IMG/VR virus record: IMGVR_UViG_3300025137_000295
Coordinates: 1-23,637 of that record
Length of the DNA: 23,637 bases
DNA from: a virus
Strand: one strand, 5' to 3'
Of this stretch, positions 12,195 to 22,130 are shown in pieces. The notes beneath the pieces were generated by a model that saw only the letters and a program-made list of their open reading frames with translations, was not told the DNA's origin and did no database searches. The position numbers and the translations under genes are program-made. How positions within the stretch are numbered: position 1 is the first letter of the stretch; each line of letters begins with the position of its first letter.

Positions 12195-13691
12195 CTAAAA
12201 TTCAATTATAATTTTTATATCTTCCGTTTGGTCAGAAGCTCGTTGAATTGGTTTTCTATTTTCTAAGTAAATCATATTACCACTATATGATTCAAGTTCT
12301 GGATTTGCATAACCAGAAGTAAGAGATAGTGTAGAACCAGAAGCAAGTGTAACAGATTCAGTTGTAGTGGATGGTGTACCTGTTGCACCAGATGTTCCAC
12401 CTGTAATTAGGTTTGCACCACTAAAGGCAACATACGCACCAGAAGTAGCATTTGTTCCAAATCCCTTGAAACTTTCTTGTTGATAATAAAGAAGGTTTAA
12501 TGTAGGATCAAACTCAACAACTTTACCAGATGCACCAGTTGATGCTTGTGTAATTACTTCATCGGGTTCAAATGTACCAGAGTATGTTGCAAGTTTAACA
12601 ACATAACTTTGACGAAATGTAGAACCAGTTGCAACAGTAGTTGTTCCAAAAAGTGTTGGGTCAGCAATAAGACCTACTGTTCTGAAATCATTTCCAGCAG
12701 TAAAGTCATCACCCTCTGCAGCTGTAAGTGTTGTTGCAGACATAATGTAATGACCACCAAGTTCTGTGATTGCACTAAATCCATGTCCACCATTTGGTGA
12801 AATGATAACTTCAATTGCACCACCAGTACCACTTCCTATAGAGGAAGAAGATGACAATGCTGTGTCAGAGAAGGTGAATGAAGAACCTAAATTTATATAA
12901 CCAAAAGTATAACCAGCTCCTGCGGCATGAATAGTTGTATCTGTACCAGCAGTCAATCCGAATGAAACAATAGAACCAGATGCAATTGTAATTCTAACAA
13001 TCGCACCAGATGATGTTCCAGCACTTGTGCCATCTCCGTATATAGCAGCATAGTATGTTCCGTTAGTATAACCAGACCCAGCAGTAACTTTGAGAGATTC
13101 AATAGCACCATCAGTTGCGGCAGCTGAAACAGTACTATTAGTAGAAACTGGTATAAAGTCTGTAGTTAAATATTTTGAAGAATCTGACTGAGAAATTGTG
13201 TACATATATTTAATGACATATCCACCAATCGCAACAGGGGAGTTACTTGTGTCTGTTGGTTCTGCACCATTATAAGCAGCACCACCATTGTTGTCAAGAA
13301 CTTTATAAACATTATAGTCAGAAGTCATAAAGAAAAATGTTGAGTCATAAAGGTTTGTTGCACCTGATGTCGAAGTAGTATCTGAATTATAGTTGTGTTG
13401 ATACATATCATAGATAGTACCATTCGACCAGTTTCTACGAGGAAGTGCAAAAGTAATGTCAGTTGAAGCAATGTTCTTTGCAGCCAACATAGCATCCCAT
13501 GCACGAAATTCCTCTTGAGGACTATCGCCTGGAATTGGAGGAATACCATCTGAACCACCAGTTGTACTACTAGTGAACGGAGTTGCTTTTCCTAAAAATA
13601 AATAATATTTATTTAGAGCTGTTTCAGTAAACGATTCAAAGAATTGATTCGCATTGTGTTGTCTAAATTTTTCTGTAATGATTGCCGACAT
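12195..13691 (-). CDS. 8: Baseplate wedge protein gp8
   Basis: Homology to T4 gp8 is visible at both ends. An ALPRRNWSNGTIYDMY stretch near residues 83-98 matches the T4 IPRRDW region. A MIYLENRKPI stretch, followed by DQTEDIKIIIEF at the C-terminus, matches T4 MIYMENRPPI and DQTEEINILF. T4 gp8 has 334 residues and this has 498. The extra length is mainly beta-rich, glycine- and serine-rich repeats in the middle and C-terminal part (GSGYTNGTYY near 203, GAGYTFGYINLG near 253, GTFEPDEVITQASTG near 375, ITGGTSGATGT near 430). gp8 dimers are part of the wedge that joins gp7 and gp10 in T4. The start has AAAGG (13702-13706) ten bases upstream and an exact late box at 13711. Comparison is from memory, not a computed alignment. 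Confidence 0.9.
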   Translation of the reverse strand: MSAIITEKFRQHNANQFFESFTETALNKYYLFLGKATPFTSSTTGGSDGIPPIPGDSPQEEFRAWDAMLAAKNIASTDITFALPRRNWSNGTIYDMYQHNYNSDTTSTSGATNLYDSTFFFMTSDYNVYKVLDNNGGAAYNGAEPTDTSNSPVAIGGYVIKYMYTISQSDSSKYLTTDFIPVSTNSTVSAAATDGAIESLKVTAGSGYTNGTYYAAIYGDGTSAGTSSGAIVRITIASGSIVSFGLTAGTDTTIHAAGAGYTFGYINLGSSFTFSDTALSSSSSIGSGTGGAIEVIISPNGGHGFSAITELGGHYIMSATTLTAAEGDDFTAGNDFRTVGLIADPTLFGTTTVATGSTFRQSYVVKLATYSGTFEPDEVITQASTGASGKVVEFDPTLNLLYYQQESFKGFGTNATSGAYVAFSGANLITGGTSGATGTPSTTTESVTLASGSTLSLTSGYANPELESYSGNMIYLENRKPIQRASDQTEDIKIIIEF

Positions 13692-13727: not shown

Positions 13728-16700
13728 TTAGTAAGTTATACCAGTTGCTCCTTCAAATTGTATATTATCTCCTGTATTTAATAATAAAAATCCATGCGTA
13801 CTGTCTGTTGCATCTTCTAATGCTACATCGCCAGTATCTCTAACATGAATATCAGATGATCTCACAACAGGGAGTCCACCTTTACTACTATTTATAAGTA
13901 AATTTTCATCAGGAATTTGACCAGAACTTAAAACAATGTTTGTTGTTTCAAGTACGATAGCTGATGTGGTTGCAGTGGTGTCTGTTGTGTATGTACTCTT
14001 AAACCATTTTCTTGATTCTGTTGCATCTTCTAATACGATAACATCTTCATTTGTTTCATCAAGCAACTTATCAATGACAGAAATTGTAGAATAACTTTCT
14101 ATAATAAGATTACCATTTTCTTCTAAATTAAATCTATTTCTTTTTGTAGTTTCTTGACCTATGTACTCTCCGTCCTCTGCCAAAATCTGACCAAAGCTTT
14201 CTAGTTCAATACCAACATCAACTCCAGCATTAACACCAAAATTATTTGTTCGTCCATCGTTAACAATAATTTTATCTTGTTTTATAATGTCACTAAAACG
14301 ATAGTTACTAATTTGTGATAATGGAATAGTTTCTTCATTGTTATTGTTTCCGTCTAGGATAATTCTATCACCTTCGTTTACTACATATCCAGCTGGGAAG
14401 TTCCACTCTCCACCTTCTTGTAATATCCTTGATGCTCCATCATCTTCTTCTCCCAAGATATTAAATGTTTCATAGTCTTGACTTCCAGCAACATCTTCTT
14501 CAAGTCTAAAGAATGTGTCTGCTTGGTCGAGAGGTAATGTTCCATCTAACTGAAGAACATCTTCAGAAAAAGTTGTACCCTCTAGAATTATACCATCTCC
14601 ACCCAATTCATTTCCAAATGGATATTCTGCTAGATACACTAACAAGTTTCTTGTAAATTTAGGACTTGGCCTTGCAGTAATCTTTGTTACAATTTCTTTA
14701 ACAAGAATCCTGTCACCTTTTTCTGATGGAGCATATGACTTCTCTGTCATTATATGACTACCACCAGTACCAGTACCAGAAGTCCTGTCACTAGTATGTG
14801 TTACTGTTCTATCTTCCCACAATAAAGAGTCACCTGTCATTTGGAATCCATCTTCCAAATCCATACCTAGTCCATCTTCAAAGAGTATGTTTGAACCCAC
14901 ATCAGTTGAGGCTGCACTTGCATCAAGTACAAGATTGTCGCCAGGCAAACTTCCATCTTCTTGAATAATCTTCTGGTCACGAACACCAACTTCTGCAACA
15001 GGATATGCCTGAAGTCTTGTCTGTAGAAGTTGGTCAAAGATAGTCTGGAATGTAGATGCAAGTATTGGTGAGAATGTATCTGTGTCACCTGTGTATGCAG
15101 CAATACCAGCACCAGCATTACCAATTTCTACTGATACTAAGGTTGCAAGAGTAACTCTACCAAATGGTTGGAAACCAGCAGGGTGAACTGCTTTCTTTAA
15201 CTCATTCACATAACTTGAAAATGATGCACCAATCTGAACTTCATACGAAAAGTCTTGATAATAATAAGAGTCTTGAATACGAATCAAATCTTCACCAAGT
15301 CTATGTTGAACATTAGCATAATCTGAATCTGTAGTAGATAACACATCAACACTCGTTGTACCAGTAGCAATATCAGCTGTAATAACTGTTCCAACTGCAC
15401 CACCTGAATCCTGAATAGTAACATCTTTTCCAGAAAAATCTATTGGGTCTTCATTGATGATATGGTCATCAGCATCAACTAAATCAGTTGCAGTAGAATC
15501 AAGAGTGATTTGACCATCACCAGTTTCGTCATCTAATAAGAACCCATCTCTTGCATCTGTTTCATTAGCATCAGTAGCTTCTAAGATAAGAGTGTTACCA
15601 AAATCTTCGTTTGCAAGTTTAGAATTAGCATTTAAACTAGAGCTGTCTGTTCCATTAAGAATAATGTATTGATGACTGAGAGCATTTGTTGTATCGTTTT
15701 CTCTGCGAATACTTGCTTGTAAAAGTTTTCCACCAGATGTCGATTGTTGTACAAGTTTACTTTGGTTAGAATCAAAATCTTCATCTAATAAGAAACCACC
15801 AACACCTTGACTTTCAAGTTGAATCCTATCCGTTGCATTTCCTACTGTGCCACTTTCTTGTAAGAAGAAATGGTCGAACCTATCAGTACCATCTATGATT
15901 ATATTAGAACCTTCATCAAGAACTATAGTATCGTATACATTAGTTGCAATGGAAGCACCCATACCAGAATGATTGGTGCAGTAGTAATATAATACAGGTG
16001 CGTTTGATGCAACAACAATTTGAATGTATGCTCCATTTGTACCAATGTCTATTGACGCAGCTGATTTTGTAACACCAGTAGTATATTCAGTACCACTGTT
16101 ATGAGTTCCATCAAGAGTTTCAGATAGTCTTAGTATGTGTTGACCTGTTGTCGCAACATTGTATAGTGTCGGGTCTGACAAGTCAAAGTAATAAGTATTA
16201 CCTTCATACAAAACTAATTCTGCTTGTGGTGTACCATTAATATAAAATATATTTTGTTCTAGTGTTGTGCTATAGTAAACTTGAACTTTATATGTAAAGG
16301 TCTGAGGTAATGGTGTAAATGTTCCTGTACCATTTAAAAGAATACCTTCAGTATCATCAAACTCTTGTTCGTCCTCAAGAAGAATACCTTCGGGAAGAAG
16401 AAGTTCTGTACCCTGCTCAAGCTGGATACCTTCTTGGAATGTTGATGTTTGTTCTTGTTCAACTCTTATGACATTTTCAAATGTTGTGTCAAGAACTTTA
16501 GTGGTACTATTCCACCCACTAATAGTTCCAGTATGTCCTGATGAAGTTAATGTATTACCAACTTCAAAAGCACCTGTTATATCTTTAAGAACAAAGTGTG
16601 CATTGTATGATAACTCTGGTGGATTAGTACTACTGTATCTAAATCCAGAGTTTTTAATTTTTGTTGCTTTAATAGAACCAATGTCTGTAGTTGTTGCGTG

Positions 16701-18515
16701 TATACTTACACCACTACCAGTAGTACTTGTTATAGCAACTGTTGGAAGTTTTGTATAACCATACCCACCATCAGTCACTACAGCTTTAATAACATGTCCA
16801 GCTTCTTGTGAATTAGCACCATTAATATTTGTAAAGGTATCAGACTCTAAAACAATCTGATCGTTTGTAGTTGTATATGTGTCTAATGTTTCTACAGTTT
16901 GTTCAGTAAGTATTTGATGTCCTGCACCTAGAATAACACTTTCTTCATCTACAGTAATAATAGATGTGCCATTTAAAACTAAAGAGTCTACTAGATTACC
17001 ACGAACATATATTTTAGTATTAAGTGGTACTGAATATGTAAATGATATTTGTGTACTTGTTGCAGTCCAGTTTACAGTAGTGTCACTTGATGTTGCTGGT
17101 AAAAACACATCATCAAATGTTACATAAAGTTCATCTAGTGTTCCACTTGTGTTTACAAGATTAAATACTTTGGTTGTACCATCTCCAATGAAACTATCTG
17201 AGTCAGTTGTTTCAAGAACAATTGTAAATGATTCAAATTGAGTAGTGGTCGCATCCTCAAGTGTGATAGTATCTGAACCAGATTCTTGGAGAATACCGCC
17301 ACCAACCATACTTACAATACCAGAGGCTTCTTTAACATCTGTGTCAGCTGCATTCTTGGTAAATGTAAGAACATCACCTACTTCATATTCTGTACCAGCT
17401 GTTTCTACAATGAGTTCACTTACAGAACCAGTGTTAATACCATCAACAACAACATCTGCAAAATCATTACCAATCGCTTCTACATTAACAGTTTCGCCAT
17501 CAGTATAAAGTATACCATCATTTGTTACCGCAGTATCAGAAACAATACCCAATACTGTAAATGAAATTTCAACATCTTTTTCTGTGGAAAGACCAGATAT
17601 GATTTCTCCATCACTAAATGTTCCTATAACATTTTCAACAGTAAACTCAATAACAGAATCATTGTATGTCGCATTAGATTCTATTCTAGTAACAGACTTT
17701 TCTACAATCGCAGTAGCACCAGAAGTTGCACCAGTAATTAATTGATTAGTAATTTCAGATCCTACAGAAGAACCAACAGCAGTTGCTCTAATAACAGATG
17801 AGGATTGCCAGATACCAGCAGAAGGTTTCATTACATAAATGTTAGGATAGAAAATTTCAGAGTCTTCACCTAACAACATACGCATAAAGAGTTTGTGGCC
17901 CTCTGATGTTCCTTTGGCAGAATAGAGGTCTTTAATGTTTTTAATTAGATTTCTTTTATTAACACCAGACGCAAGAGTCTCAGGAATTGCTTGCATGAAC
18001 TCATCACGCATATTATCCAAAAACTCGTAAAGAGTATTATCTACGTTTGCATATTCCAACATCTGTTGGATACTTTGAATTGGGTTTGCTTGATACGAAT
18101 CAACAGTACCATTAGAACCAGATGTTCCACCTGTTACTGTTTCACCAGTTATAAATTGTTGTTGTCCTGTGACATAAAGATACGAGTTTCTAGAATCATC
18201 AACCAGAACTTTTGCGGTTACTTTTGAAGTACCACCAGTAATAGTTTCACCAGCTACAAAATGACCTAGAGTACCAGCTCCAAGTTCAGTAACAATCCTA
18301 TCACCAGTTTCTTCTAAAATATATGAAACAGTATTTGTTTCTTGTGAGATATAATCTACATTGGCAGTAAGAGTTAATCTGCCTGCTTCCAGAAATTGAA
18401 AATAATCTTTTACAAAATCTACAAATACTGGATGGTCTGCTTGAACAAAGTCAGGCACTTGTCCTTCAATAAGAGGAGAAACCTTCGTAGTAAATTTTGA
18501 AATATTCTTTGACAT
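13728..18515 (-). CDS. 7: gp7-like baseplate wedge protein with large beta insertion, 1595 aa
   Basis: Two separated stretches resemble the C-terminal part of T4 gp7. Residues 28-230 have HPVFVDFVKDYFQFLEAG, an LYEFLDNMRDEF helix and DLYSAKGTSEGHKLFMRML (T4: DFYSTKGIEASYKFLFKVL). Residues about 1105-1122 have ELKKAVHPAGFQPFG (T4: RFVHPVGFGF). About 880 residues lie between them. That insertion holds GExITGGTSG-type modules (near 85-140, 258-312, 640-660), GYxYT-type modules, a cupredoxin-like domain (739-860) and acidic LEDG/ILLEDE repeats that continue to the C-terminus. The N-terminal half of T4 gp7 seems absent. Position between gp6 and gp8 agrees with gp7. In T4, gp7 links gp6, gp8, gp10 and gp53 in the wedge. 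The start is preceded by tandem stops (TAATAAATG) and has no visible ribosome site, so coupling to gp6 is likely. Homology is from memory and needs profile comparison. Confidence 0.75.
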   Translation of the reverse strand: MSKNISKFTTKVSPLIEGQVPDFVQADHPVFVDFVKDYFQFLEAGRLTLTANVDYISQETNTVSYILEETGDRIVTELGAGTLGHFVAGETITGGTSKVTAKVLVDDSRNSYLYVTGQQQFITGETVTGGTSGSNGTVDSYQANPIQSIQQMLEYANVDNTLYEFLDNMRDEFMQAIPETLASGVNKRNLIKNIKDLYSAKGTSEGHKLFMRMLLGEDSEIFYPNIYVMKPSAGIWQSSSVIRATAVGSSVGSEITNQLITGATSGATAIVEKSVTRIESNATYNDSVIEFTVENVIGTFSDGEIISGLSTEKDVEISFTVLGIVSDTAVTNDGILYTDGETVNVEAIGNDFADVVVDGINTGSVSELIVETAGTEYEVGDVLTFTKNAADTDVKEASGIVSMVGGGILQESGSDTITLEDATTTQFESFTIVLETTDSDSFIGDGTTKVFNLVNTSGTLDELYVTFDDVFLPATSSDTTVNWTATSTQISFTYSVPLNTKIYVRGNLVDSLVLNGTSIITVDEESVILGAGHQILTEQTVETLDTYTTTNDQIVLESDTFTNINGANSQEAGHVIKAVVTDGGYGYTKLPTVAITSTTGSGVSIHATTTDIGSIKATKIKNSGFRYSSTNPPELSYNAHFVLKDITGAFEVGNTLTSSGHTGTISGWNSTTKVLDTTFENVIRVEQEQTSTFQEGIQLEQGTELLLPEGILLEDEQEFDDTEGILLNGTGTFTPLPQTFTYKVQVYYSTTLEQNIFYINGTPQAELVLYEGNTYYFDLSDPTLYNVATTGQHILRLSETLDGTHNSGTEYTTGVTKSAASIDIGTNGAYIQIVVASNAPVLYYYCTNHSGMGASIATNVYDTIVLDEGSNIIIDGTDRFDHFFLQESGTVGNATDRIQLESQGVGGFLLDEDFDSNQSKLVQQSTSGGKLLQASIRRENDTTNALSHQYIILNGTDSSSLNANSKLANEDFGNTLILEATDANETDARDGFLLDDETGDGQITLDSTATDLVDADDHIINEDPIDFSGKDVTIQDSGGAVGTVITADIATGTTSVDVLSTTDSDYANVQHRLGEDLIRIQDSYYYQDFSYEVQIGASFSSYVNELKKAVHPAGFQPFGRVTLATLVSVEIGNAGAGIAAYTGDTDTFSPILASTFQTIFDQLLQTRLQAYPVAEVGVRDQKIIQEDGSLPGDNLVLDASAASTDVGSNILFEDGLGMDLEDGFQMTGDSLLWEDRTVTHTSDRTSGTGTGGSHIMTEKSYAPSEKGDRILVKEIVTKITARPSPKFTRNLLVYLAEYPFGNELGGDGIILEGTTFSEDVLQLDGTLPLDQADTFFRLEEDVAGSQDYETFNILGEEDDGASRILQEGGEWNFPAGYVVNEGDRIILDGNNNNEETIPLSQISNYRFSDIIKQDKIIVNDGRTNNFGVNAGVDVGIELESFGQILAEDGEYIGQETTKRNRFNLEENGNLIIESYSTISVIDKLLDETNEDVIVLEDATESRKWFKSTYTTDTTATTSAIVLETTNIVLSSGQIPDENLLINSSKGGLPVVRSSDIHVRDTGDVALEDATDSTHGFLLLNTGDNIQFEGATGITY
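13889..13896 (-). promoter_or_regulatory. Possible internal late box TATAAATA
   Basis: An exact TATAAATA on the minus strand inside the last 170 bases of the gp7-like gene, about 200 bases before gp8. It could be a second gp8 promoter. It also encodes part of a leucine-isoleucine-asparagine stretch, so it may be coincidental. Confidence 0.3.
15936..16301 (-). other. Cupredoxin-like domain within the gp7-like protein
   Basis: Residues about 739-860 form a self-contained beta domain. It opens with TYKVQVYYS and a GNTYYFDLSDPT strand, has GQHILRLSETLDGTHN around H793, a glycine-rich linker, and ends with PVLYYYCTNHSGMGASI carrying C846, H849 and M852. Type 1 copper proteins bind copper with an upstream histidine and a C-terminal C-x2-H-x(n)-M cluster; the x2 spacing to Met is that of amicyanin. 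The 53-residue gap between the first His and the Cys lies in the range of known cupredoxins. The ligand pattern is seen directly; copper binding is inferred. A domain that kept the fold and ligands for stability only is the main alternative. Confidence 0.6.
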
Positions 18516-18518
18516 TTA

Positions 18519-20453
18519 TTAGTACGCCGATGGTGACGAGGTAGATGACGTTGAAGTCACTGTTGTCGTTGTTGTTCCGCCTGTAGTAGTTGTTGTATAA
18601 CCAATGCCAGTTGAGGCAGTAGCATCAATTCCAGCAACAACTGTAGAGTTCACAGTATCAAGTTCAAGAATTTGATTTCGTACAGGAATAACATCATATG
18701 AGTTTGGAATTACAGTAACACGAATCTGTGTAGAAACCACACCATCAACATTAGATATAGCAGAAATCATAATTGGGTTTAGTGTTATTTTTCCATTTGT
18801 ATAATCTACTGCTCCAGCACTAAGATTAGAATAAACTCTTGTACCAGCAACTAAAGAATATATTCTGAGATTACCAGAACCATCATCATCTAAGAAATAT
18901 TCTTTTGTTGAATCAATAGAACTCATTGAGAATCCTGTTGAAGAAATGACACCACCATTATCTTTATTATGTCCTGCGTGTGGATAATAAAATGCATTAT
19001 TAAAATTCAAGATATAAGAAGTCGAAACATTTACTGTTGGTACAATATATTTGGCCATGATAACTGTTGTTGTATTATTCAAAATAGAACTGTCTGTATT
19101 ATCAATGAGTCCTAATAACTTTGAATGTCTGAATGGTGCATTAAAAGTTTGTAGGTCTGATGTATTGTAAGATGAAATAACATTAGTTACTCTAGTGGCT
19201 AATTCAGTTGCACTATAAGTGGTTGCACTTGAATCATACTGAACTGTTGTATTTAAAATAACAAAGGTTGTTTCTGCGTCAACGATTACAGGAGTAATAG
19301 AACCCACTTTGTATGGAGATAATCCAGCAACCAAATTTGATTTCTGTACATCAGTTAAACTATTTCCAGTAGTAGACTTTATCGAAATGAAAACCTTACC
19401 ATACTCTGGTGTAGAACTTACACCTGTACTTGTATCATAACTTCCATCTTCCCCACCCCAAACAGAAACCGCTTGAGCATTTGCAAAAAGTTTTCTTACA
19501 AATGTTTTGTAATCATTTGTTGTAACTGCACGACCTTGTGCTGCGTAATCTAAAGGTGCATTTAATTTAACAGAGGCTATTGATTCTGGTTCTGCACCAC
19601 CAGTTGCAATACCTACTGTTGTTACAGTAATATCTGTTATACCATTAATAGCAGAGGGAGAACTAAACACTCTTGCACCATTTGCTTCAGATTTGTTTGT
19701 AACAACATATTGTAAAGAAACAATGTTACCATCAGATACCGCTTGACTTAAAACACCATCACCAAAGTATACTTCAAACTTTCCTGTTTCTACTTCTTGT
19801 AAAAAGTATACTGTGCTTGCATCAGTAAGTTCAGAAATGTCAGTTGCTTTAGTATATGTTCTAGTAAAGGTATCACTTGCAGATGTTTGTACCTTTACGA
19901 TAAGTGTTGTTGTGTCTGCTCTTGCGTCATCAATAATAAATCTTTGTTCTTCGTCAGAACTGTCTACTAGATATTTTGATGTAATCCAAGTTCCTTCATA
20001 GATTGAAGTGCTATCAAAGTTTACACTAGTACCAGAGTTGTTTGATGTTATATCAGAGGTTGTAACAAAGTTATAATTTGTACCATCTACTGTTGTTGTA
20101 AATGTCGTGCCTGCTGGCATTGTTCTTGATGATAGCCCTGTTGTAAGAGAAATATTAACTGTCGCTTTAGGAGCTCGACATGAGGAAACTTCGTATCCTA
20201 ATTTCTTTGCGTGTGAAACAACACTTGATCGTAGAGATGCACTATCCAAAAACATTTCGTTTGCAACCATGTTAGCATTGTAAGCCATGTAGTGTGTATT
20301 GTATGCAAGTGTATCTAAAAGAACACTCATACCAGAACCTTCAAAGTCATAGTCGGTAAATTGGTTCTGTGCTTTTAGAAAAATTTTCAGGTTGTCTTTA
20401 ATATCATCAAAGTCAAGTTCTGTAACTCTAAGTCTTTTGTCGTTTACTGCCAT
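18519..20453 (-). CDS. 6: Baseplate wedge protein gp6 (baseplate J family)
   Basis: The 644-residue length is close to T4 gp6 (660). The N-terminus (RLRVTELDFDDIKDNLKIFL, then FEGSGMSVLLDTLAYNTHYM) and a YKTFVRKLFANAQAVSVWGG stretch near residue 314 are hallmark sequences of the gp6/baseplate J family. A SYILNFNNAFYYPHAG stretch lies near 480. gp6 dimers form the inner ring of the T4 baseplate and connect the wedges. The C-terminus is odd: from about residue 615 it becomes a threonine- and serine-rich low-complexity tail ending in SPSAY. The ATG shares one base with the gp25 stop (TAATG), so translation is probably coupled. A GAGAGA purine run in the end of gp25 may serve as ribosome site. 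Confidence 0.95.
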   Translation of the reverse strand: MAVNDKRLRVTELDFDDIKDNLKIFLKAQNQFTDYDFEGSGMSVLLDTLAYNTHYMAYNANMVANEMFLDSASLRSSVVSHAKKLGYEVSSCRAPKATVNISLTTGLSSRTMPAGTTFTTTVDGTNYNFVTTSDITSNNSGTSVNFDSTSIYEGTWITSKYLVDSSDEEQRFIIDDARADTTTLIVKVQTSASDTFTRTYTKATDISELTDASTVYFLQEVETGKFEVYFGDGVLSQAVSDGNIVSLQYVVTNKSEANGARVFSSPSAINGITDITVTTVGIATGGAEPESIASVKLNAPLDYAAQGRAVTTNDYKTFVRKLFANAQAVSVWGGEDGSYDTSTGVSSTPEYGKVFISIKSTTGNSLTDVQKSNLVAGLSPYKVGSITPVIVDAETTFVILNTTVQYDSSATTYSATELATRVTNVISSYNTSDLQTFNAPFRHSKLLGLIDNTDSSILNNTTTVIMAKYIVPTVNVSTSYILNFNNAFYYPHAGHNKDNGGVISSTGFSMSSIDSTKEYFLDDDGSGNLRIYSLVAGTRVYSNLSAGAVDYTNGKITLNPIMISAISNVDGVVSTQIRVTVIPNSYDVIPVRNQILELDTVNSTVVAGIDATASTGIGYTTTTTGGTTTTTVTSTSSTSSPSAY

Positions 20454-20881
20454 TATCGTAATCTCTCTAACATTATGGATAAGTCAACTAATTCTGTGGG
20501 AGCATTAACGACATAAAATTCTATCGAAACTTCGTATGAGTTTTTATCCAAGTTTGGGTTTGCTGTAATACCTACTAATCTTACTCTTGGTTCAAAGTTA
20601 TTAATTACATCTTCAATCTTTCTTGAAAGTATCTGTGCTGTAATTGGAGTCATGTTTTCAAACAACATATCCCGAACACCAGAACCAATCTCTGGGTGGA
20701 ATGGTTTTTCATAATGATTAGTTAATACCAGATTACGAACAGAACGCTTAACAGCTTTAATATCAGTAATGCTTTGAATATCATCATTGGAAGTTTTTTT
20801 TCCAAAGAACAAATCTATGTCTGAATATATCCTAGCACTACGTTTGCTATTATTGGTTGTTGTTGCATCAAACTGCGCCAT
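20453..20881 (-). CDS. 25: Baseplate wedge and sheath-initiator protein gp25
   Basis: The 142-residue product matches the GPW/gp25 family in length (T4 gp25 has 132) and sequence. NHYEKPFHPEIGSGVRDMLF spans residues 55-74. The EPR motif, E97-P98-R99, is present; it is conserved in gp25 and in the type VI secretion protein TssE. In T4, gp25 sits on the gp6-gp7 core bundle and starts polymerisation of the gp18 sheath. The ATG follows AGGGG at 20891-20895 with nine bases between. Having gp25 directly before gp6 is usual in marine T4-likes but not in T4 itself, where gene 25 is elsewhere. Confidence 0.95.
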   Translation of the reverse strand: MAQFDATTTNNSKRSARIYSDIDLFFGKKTSNDDIQSITDIKAVKRSVRNLVLTNHYEKPFHPEIGSGVRDMLFENMTPITAQILSRKIEDVINNFEPRVRLVGITANPNLDKNSYEVSIEFYVVNAPTELVDLSIMLERLR

Positions 20882-20921: not shown

Positions 20922-22130
20922 TTACTCGTCTTTTTTAATTCCTGCATCTATTTTTTCATTATATTCATAAGTTATTTTTATATAATCCCAAGTAACTTCT
21001 GCTAAGTCATATTGTTCGCCATCAAACTCAAAGAAAGTAACGCCAGCATCCTGAACAATACTTACATTTAAAGCGGCGAGGTTTTTTGTGACAATATCCC
21101 CATTTTTTATTACTTTAGTGCCCGAACGCCGATATATAAGACCTGTTGTTATTACTTTAGTGCCTGCGTCATTTAACCTAACTTCTACAGCACCAGCACT
21201 TAAAATCTTGGTTGGCATTGGGAAGTATGTTTCTTTTTCAATAAAATCACTGAGCTCACTATAATCAAATGCTTCTTCGTTCAGCCATTGGACAGCATCA
21301 ATTGGTATATCAAAGTCTTTGTATTTTCTTGTTTTGTTAGCCACACCACCTACAGGTTTTCCATCTGGTGTTTTTAAATCCATTATTGCTCGAAATTCTG
21401 GACTAATATAGACAAGTGTTTTTTTGCCTTTTTTATAAGCAAATCCTTTTTCAGAATATCCCGAAGCACCAGCATCAGATTTTGTAGTAGCTGATACTTT
21501 AGTTCCAGCAGGTGTTGTTATGTTTGTTGATTTTTCAGTTATTTCATATGTGGTTTTATCTGCGTATGATGCAGTTGTAGATTCTAGTTCAGCCTTTAGT
21601 GCAGTTGCATTAACATTATCTGATACAGTTGAAACTTCTTCATCTATAGCATTTTCAAGTGCAGCCTTTACACCTTCTGCTTTTTCTAAAACCTCTCCGC
21701 CTGCTGCAGGCAATTCAAGATTAGGTACAACTCCACAAACATTTCCACCACCAGAAATAGCATCAGTTGCAGATGATACTAAACTATCAAAATCTTTTCC
21801 AGACTTAGTAAGGGTATCACCAAACTTTAATTTTAAATCATTGAGTTTTGATGTGTACTGTGTCAACCCCTGTGGAGTTGATATGTCAAAAGATATAAGA
21901 CTTGTAAGTTCTGATTGAAAATTTAGATTTGGTAGTTCTGGTAAATCTGGAACAAGTCCATCAAGTCCTAATTTGACATCTGTAAGTTTGCTCTCAATAG
22001 CAGCCTTTGCAGCAGATGCCTCTGCATTTATCTGTGAAGTTATTTGTGATTCTAAATCTGCAATCCTCGATGACGCAAGATTAAGTTCAAGACTTGCACC
22101 ACAGAGATCGGGTATTTTAAAATTTGCCAT
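20922..22130 (-). CDS. Unrecognised 402-aa protein, probably baseplate-associated
   Basis: I do not recognise this protein. The N-terminal half is helical: LNLASSRIADLESQITSQIN at residues 16-35, and further helices to about 120 and at 145-195, with a leucine/proline-rich turn (LVPDLPELPNL) near 60. A glycine-rich break with NVCGVVPNLEL lies near 134. From about 200 the protein is beta-rich, with FAYKKGKKTLVYISPEFRAI near 233, then TGLIYRRSGTKVIKNGD and TFFEFDGEQYDLAEVTWDYI near the end. No signal peptide or membrane span. It sits between gp5 and gp25, starts six bases after an AGGAAA ribosome site (22137-22142) that overlaps the gp5 stop, and so is probably made with gp5. A hub or wedge accessory protein, or an assembly chaperone for the spike, is a reasonable guess. 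Confidence 0.75.
   Translation of the reverse strand: MANFKIPDLCGASLELNLASSRIADLESQITSQINAEASAAKAAIESKLTDVKLGLDGLVPDLPELPNLNFQSELTSLISFDISTPQGLTQYTSKLNDLKLKFGDTLTKSGKDFDSLVSSATDAISGGGNVCGVVPNLELPAAGGEVLEKAEGVKAALENAIDEEVSTVSDNVNATALKAELESTTASYADKTTYEITEKSTNITTPAGTKVSATTKSDAGASGYSEKGFAYKKGKKTLVYISPEFRAIMDLKTPDGKPVGGVANKTRKYKDFDIPIDAVQWLNEEAFDYSELSDFIEKETYFPMPTKILSAGAVEVRLNDAGTKVITTGLIYRRSGTKVIKNGDIVTKNLAALNVSIVQDAGVTFFEFDGEQYDLAEVTWDYIKITYEYNEKIDAGIKKDE

Follow-up and report, generated by a model that had tools for sequence, protein, structure and literature searches.

The stretch of viral DNA analysed here (IMG/VR virus record IMGVR_UViG_3300025137_000295, positions 1 to 23,637; 23,637 nt in all, hereafter the window) raises the question of whether a phage baseplate protein can carry a cupredoxin-like domain with the full ligand set of a type 1 copper site, and what such a domain would do there. 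Metal is familiar in virions as the iron and zinc clamps of tail tips and fibres. We knew of no type 1-like copper site on baseplates or fibres before this work. A literature search combining cupredoxin, blue copper or copper-binding with phage tail, baseplate, cyanophage or marine returned titles and opening lines of abstracts that described no such domain, and the consulted portions of PMC7824862, PMC7029224, PMC3037559 and PMC10665884 described no copper domain in a virion.

The protein in question has 1595 residues and is encoded within a run of baseplate genes, whose gp numbers are borrowed from annotated relatives:

20453..20881, minus strand: baseplate wedge protein at the gp25 position (phrog_261, E 1.7e-46; gp25 in P-HM2 and Mosig)
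18519..20453, minus strand: baseplate wedge protein at the gp6 position (phrog_219, E 3.2e-178; gp6 in P-HM2)
13728..18515, minus strand: gp7-position baseplate wedge protein, 1595 aa, carrying the cupredoxin-like domain
12195..13691, minus strand: baseplate wedge protein at the gp8 position, next downstream (phrog_438, E 1.7e-126; annotated as Gp8 in Mosig)

Pfam Baseplate_wedge (PF23786) matched residues 16-225 of the 1595-aa protein (E 3.2e-9, 37.1 bits against a cut-off of 27), and its best PHROG match, 'head closure Hc2' (5e-49), was followed by two named 'baseplate wedge subunit' (1.1e-43 and 3.2e-40). Genes upstream of it fell into the PHROG families of a baseplate hub/lysozyme and two wedge subunits, and the downstream gene into that of a wedge subunit. 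The gp7-position gene stands directly after two wedge genes, as it does in HTVC008M, Mosig, Melnitz and P-HM2; the order in HTVC008M runs gp25-type, gp6-type, structural protein, wedge protein and VrlC, and additional genes separate the gp7-position gene from the later wedge gene in Mosig and Melnitz. GenBank relatives of the N-terminal 234 residues matched at 55% (Melnitz), 40% (HTVC008M) and 37% (Mosig), the best among the matches listed, and those of the gp6-position protein at 52% (Melnitz), 51% (Mosig) and 50% (HTVC008M), among the best 6 of 2349 records. Gene order and profile matches together identify the 1595-aa protein as the gp7-position wedge protein of a T4-type baseplate, in agreement with the initial annotation, which had called it gp7-like. 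The phage itself is T4-type and related to marine phages.

According to PMC7029224, which concerns pelagimyophages, T4 gp7 is held to be absent and VrlC to stand in its place, so that the label 'gp7-like' rests here on position and profiles. Like T4 gp7 and the marine gp7-position wedge proteins, the window protein follows the gp25 and gp6 genes and matches Pfam Baseplate_wedge; unlike them, it holds an apparently inserted domain. For cyanophage S-CREM2, PMC10665884 gives 91 unique peptides for ORF122, which we take from its gene order to be the gp7-position protein, indicating that gp7-position proteins occur in virions. A 402-aa open reading frame between the hub/lysozyme-like and gp25-position genes (20922-22130, minus strand) had no PHROG match at E 0.01.

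The domain, its predicted ligand positions and the stretch around it lie as follows:

15936..16301, minus strand: cupredoxin-like domain, residues 739-860 (AlphaFold2 model, fold matches, profile alignment to Copper-bind members)
16137..16139, minus strand: H793, first ligand position, just before model strand 66-69; kept in 289/299 distinct domains
16101..16103, minus strand: H805 in DGTH, a fifth His that is frequent but not invariant
15978..15980, minus strand: C846, last residue of model strand 113-117; kept in 290/299 distinct domains
15969..15971, minus strand: H849, second His ligand position
15960..15962, minus strand: M852, axial ligand position (Gln in loci L344 and L351, Leu in L174)
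15933..16487 (approximate), minus strand: stretch unaligned in blastp against the gp7-position protein of Melnitz, residues about 677-861

The location given in the initial annotation held, with the gene now placed on the minus strand, for which it had given none, and so did the limits of residues 739-860, the four named residues and the two motifs GQHILRL (residues 791-797) and YYYCTNHSGMG (residues 843-853). The arrangement His / Cys-x2-His-x2-Met, with its loop of amicyanin length, was likewise borne out by the sequence and by its conservation. C846 is the sole Cys of the 1595-aa protein. Among 33 distinct domain-bearing gp7-like orthologues, 29 of the 37 Cys residues fell inside the domain across a total of 47,472 residues, indicating that the ligand pattern goes beyond chance.

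When the whole protein was compared with its 896-aa Melnitz counterpart by blastp, residues 1-676 and 862-1168 aligned, and the roughly 185 residues left out hold the domain. On the Melnitz protein the aligned pieces cover 1-570 and 412-717 and so overlap, as expected of repeats, which blurs the limits of the insertion. This one alignment suggests that the domain was probably inserted into a gp7-position protein. We also fetched 46 loci by the N-terminus, of which 44 gave a gp7-like open reading frame and 34 of these 44 carried the domain. The remaining ten frames were 237-764 aa long and stopped short of a complete domain, nine of them at contig ends; the tenth (L322) ends at a stop codon, and its contig has the domain as another locus (L011). 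As all ten are too short, no sufficiently long gp7-like frame without the domain was found in this lineage. In one gp7-like orthologue (L324, residues 771-1004 of its frame) the domain is interrupted by an inserted stretch that separates one half of the ligand set from the other.

To see whether the domain has the expected fold, we examined AlphaFold2 models of the window domain and of a compact relative (L024). The window model reached pLDDT 80 and pTM 0.78, with the five models spanning 62-80. Foldseek against the PDB gave a best E of 3.1e-3, with none below 0.001, and 48 of the 50 rows were copper proteins (best 50 of 1347 matches with E up to 10), namely pseudoazurin, rusticyanin, laccases and other multicopper oxidases; ranks 1 and 50 were SO1698, called an aspartic peptidase. 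With VIA, all 50 rows listed were cupredoxins, the best being rusticyanin (Z 9.7, 107 aligned residues, 2.9 A). The L024 model had higher values (pLDDT 96, pTM 0.87); its best Foldseek E was 0.18, with one cupredoxin in the 50 rows listed, which were mostly antibody or Ig-like chains. VIA on the same candidates placed cupredoxins in its first 27 rows, the best at Z 7.5 (89/104 residues, 2.6 A), below the advised threshold of Z 8. In the L024 construct the sequence stops shortly past the Met, by a few residues, and the last strand cut in this way may be a partial cause of the weak matches of this model. The ligand positions fall in the models with one His before a strand, the Cys ending another strand, and the second His and the Met in the next loop. 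Cupredoxins have the same layout, with a His before a strand, the Cys at a strand end and His and Met in the loop that follows. The models thus predict a Greek-key cupredoxin-type sandwich for the window domain, with modest scores. The fold check proposed at the outset therefore came out in favour of a cupredoxin-like window domain, but more weakly for L024. Among viral models (BFVD), 57 matches reached E 0.001, and the named ones among the 50 listed were mostly phage structural or uncharacterised proteins. They also included proteins named after pithovirus or marseillevirus, most of them called 'beta-sandwich' (E 5e-6 to 5e-5, 16-20% identity to the window model).

Profile alignments were consistent with this fold. 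The family aligned with the Copper-bind member set at P 2.7e-4 (HH probability 41%), with the pseudoazurin-like part of that set at P 1.5e-4 (51%), with a Bacteroidetes domain (L376) at P 8.7e-11 (97%) and with an amicyanin-like protein (L388) at P 0.005 (7%); reversed controls gave P 0.08-0.57, and no profile relation to an azurin-like set was seen (P 0.05). The Bacteroidetes domain itself passes the Pfam Copper-bind cut-off (29.3 vs 21.2 bits). All four ligands were in register with the whole Copper-bind set, the Bacteroidetes domain and L388; when the pseudoazurin-like part was used by itself, the upstream His lay a few columns out of register. At the PF00127 cut-off, the window domain had no match, 4 of 45 aligned relatives matched weakly (best E 0.027), and two bacterial relatives scored 13.5 and 13.8 bits, below 21.2. 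NCBIfam gave no match for two domain queries and two lipoproteins, and the three matches of the full-length protein were all under curated cut-offs. All 45 members of the domain alignment matched PHROG profiles that include the domain but do not name it. These comparisons point to a sequence relationship with the cupredoxin superfamily, and to a predicted cupredoxin-like family, the scored members of which passed no Pfam or NCBIfam cut-off, that serves as a module of phage tails and baseplates. A PDB sequence search with the domain and with the 45-member domain alignment listed only antibody and nanobody chains at E 0.1 or worse, which we rejected as YYC look-alikes.

We then compared the ligand positions across 299 distinct domains that covered both ends, drawn from a 282-locus census, 37 SAR86 and other bacterial loci and the gp7-like orthologues; eight of 308 distinct strings not covering both ends (the split domain among them) were set aside, and a DSD- row (residues 445-520 of L315), a spurious match elsewhere in the protein, was dropped, bringing 300 to 299. 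The results showed 287 HCHM, 2 HCHQ, 1 DCHL and 9 domains lacking the first His as well as the Cys, counts that are not independent events because a large share of the census was retrieved by scans with the ligand motif in their patterns and the sequences are related. His, Cys, His and Met in this order and conserved, as in type 1 copper proteins, were therefore present in 287/299. The nine double losses (2 DATM, 2 AATM, YAP-, NSAM, KAAA, YAHM and FSFM) belong to about five lineages: a PSS2-type stand-alone protein, L302/L300, L315, L316 and the SAR86-order domain L346. The first His was lost in 10 domains, with the Cys gone too in 9 of them, and no domain among the 299 had lost the Cys while retaining the first His. 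The ligands are thus not freely lost, the outcome that would have spoken against the proposed site, but some homologues do lose them.

Cleaner samples gave a similar picture. Among the gp7-like orthologues, retrieved through their N-terminus, 22 of 25 distinct single-piece domains were complete and three lacked the site. Scans with a ligand-free query kept H-C-x2-H-x2-M in 74/75 distinct domains from new loci and in 75/75 distinct domains (2 partial ones excluded), a narrow sample made up of the best 80 loci of each (out of at least 586 and at least 544 relatives, at 79-90% and 73-91% identity to the query). A motif-based scan had the ligands in 71/71, a count not used alone because its patterns included the ligand motif, a bias shared by 27 genome-contig domains. 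The equivalent of H805 was present in 68/71 in that scan and in 213/250 domains with all four ligands; 22 of the 37 exceptions have a gap there. Clustering of the 282-locus census at 60% identity gave 20 clusters, of which 19 were complete. The best matches in a profile-found bacterial set comprised 36 HCHM, 2 HCHQ and 1 NSAM (n=39). Codons in 250 distinct domains were CAT 141/CAC 109 for H793, TGT 146/TGC 104 for C846 and CAC 142/CAT 108 for H849; with both synonymous codons in use at the His and Cys places, it is the residue that is conserved, not the DNA. The joint losses, which include three gp7-like orthologues, point to one metal site that is dispensable while the domain remains, and the three orthologues indicate that the site is not essential to the baseplate. 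The earlier suggestion of a structural relic would suit this minority of lineages; elsewhere the ligands are kept. Two SAR86-order domains (L344 and L351) have the axial Met replaced by Gln, a stellacyanin trait. In phage PSS2 the domain forms a gene of its own, 112 aa long (L082:3995-4333), in which His, Cys and His are all replaced and which RefSeq calls a baseplate wedge subunit.

The domain is not confined to this phage. At E 1e-5, tblastn detected it in 25 of the 50,697 phage records, some of them repeat records of one phage; the carriers were cyanophages and pelagiphages, plus two phages that are uncultured or unassigned. Three viral scans yielded at least 588, at least 586 and at least 544 confirmed relatives. 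Of 15 whole phage records searched with a profile, 14 contained it, 10 of them picked for a prior hit; of the other five, four were positive, namely Melnitz (in a tail fibre gene), Mosig (in a fibre gene adjoining the gp7 position), P-HM2 (in five places) and Sf-FR1 (in two partial places), and the whole record of HTVC008M was negative. H..C-x2-H-x2-M is present in the annotated gp7 'baseplate wedge initiator' of P-HM2 and in CPMG_00035 of MED4-213, a RefSeq baseplate wedge subunit. After domain masking, 284 host reading frames, bacterial ones included, formed 34 groups. Seven phage host proteins matched PHROGs named tail fibre, tail, wedge or virion structural protein, plus ones of unknown function, with some of these matches falling over the domain itself. 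The cultured carriers are marine: P-HM2, MED4-213, Melnitz, Mosig and HTVC028P. Judged by these matches, the domain is a mobile module of many phage tail proteins and not special to this baseplate.

The same domain is present in lipoproteins of SAR86, which are bacterial surface proteins. The 26 genome-contig loci appeared to us to be in part phage fragment-like and in part cellular. Within the order of a SAR86-titled genome (G002), 54 of 151 genomes carry the domain. We read 37 bacterial loci, from the SAR86 order, a few Photobacterium, a Bacteroidetes, Epulopiscium and other Gammaproteobacteria; a simple lipobox pattern was found in 11 of the 37 host frames and, by eye, in several more, usually with a glycine run next. 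One gammaproteobacterial host protein (L111) also has cadherin-like, Ig-like and subtilase domains. The initial annotation had set the domain in a T4-type baseplate; the gp7-position wedge bears this out, but the setting is not peculiar to it, the module recurring in unrelated tail and bacterial surface proteins. Two SAR86 genomes (L112:4764-8231 and L115:4839-8376) have a domain lipoprotein followed by a 966-997-aa protein with an exported-like start, which had no Pfam family over cut-off in either; the two genes are possibly a conserved pair. Both lipoproteins also gave weak, below-cut-off matches to a plant At5g54830-like domain (PF25489), which may hint at a family reaching eukaryotes.

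We put the probability at about 55% that this is a real cupredoxin-fold domain with an intact putative type 1-like copper site, acting as an exposed spacer or attachment module stiffened or tuned by copper. The beta-sandwich would be exposed and would serve for spacing or attachment, much as Ig-like domains do in phage tails; a module exchanged between fibres, wedges and the surface proteins of bacteria is likelier to be such a sandwich than an enzyme. Tail proteins assemble in a copper-poor cytoplasm, and the site would thus fill after lysis: the domain would fold metal-free during assembly in the cell and acquire copper once released. The metal would then stiffen the sandwich or set its binding face, and where it is unneeded the ligand set would decay and the domain stay. 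A broader claim, that marine tailed phages commonly have genuine type 1 copper centres on tails and baseplates, from the family that also occurs in bacterial surface lipoproteins, and that these act at host contact in copper- or redox-dependent adsorption or triggering, we regard as doubtful. If the copper site is real, the scan counts would make it common among phages, and it would tie phage particles to marine copper; the cultured carriers make it testable now.

Among the alternatives, a purely structural clamp for another metal, whether Zn or Cu(I) only, is unlikely. Cupredoxin ligands can take Zn, and metal clamps do exist in phage tail tips and fibres, but type 1 copper sites are the ones that typically show His-Cys-His-Met, with Gln as an axial variant. 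Such sites are adapted to electron transfer, and a ligand set so complete and so strongly kept would suit a redox or electron-transfer device or a sensor, in which a change of copper state at host contact alters the wedge or its binding. We find this rather improbable: no redox partner family was found over cut-off among 12 window proteins (6 searched against Pfam and 7 against PHROGs, one against both), the module sits in many unrelated proteins, and three orthologues manage without the site. A plain Ig-like beta-sandwich, with a ligand pattern inherited without metal function, would explain why the domain persists after ligand loss in the five lineages above and why the best-confidence model matched antibody and Ig-like chains in Foldseek; we hold it to be just as improbable, given four residues kept in nearly all distinct domains and in 19 of 20 clusters, joint losses, an axial place that varies to Gln and the use of both synonymous codons. 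A copper lure, in which a host surface protein for copper binding or uptake takes the copper-loaded virion part and so aids adsorption, is very improbable, a shared binding partner being conceivable from the presence of the same domain in bacterial lipoproteins.

The family stands close to several known systems. Amicyanin and pseudoazurin (PF00127) share the upstream His, the Cys-x2-His-x2-Met seen in L388 and ligands at matching strand ends. They are separate periplasmic electron carriers, unlike the window domain, which is part of a structural protein and has a His-to-Cys spacing of 53. Stellacyanin-type proteins resemble the two bacterial members with axial Gln; the window domain has Met. 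Phage tail and capsid proteins also contain Ig-like domains, which are likewise portable beta-sandwiches found in many structural proteins, but the present family differs from them by a conserved, predicted four-residue metal site. Cyanophage plastocyanin (petE) is a phage-carried cupredoxin too, but a host-type photosynthesis gene and no tail protein. PMC3037559, which covers cyanophage virion proteomics, counts petE among genes enriched in cyanophages.

A further predicted metal-site domain of tail and baseplate proteins is YHYH (PF14240), which differs in its ligands and is a predicted hydrolase. PMC7824862 describes it as a predicted Zn-binding, tail-associated hydrolase, and PMC7029224 reports YHYH and lectin domains in pelagimyophage structural proteins. 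We found YHYH in the gp7-position proteins of P-HM2 (L331:7905-16657, E 4.3e-27) and Sf-FR1 (L332:8986-18687, E 2.3e-29) as well, so that P-HM2 gp7 combines two predicted metal-site domains, YHYH and the cupredoxin-like one, in one baseplate protein.
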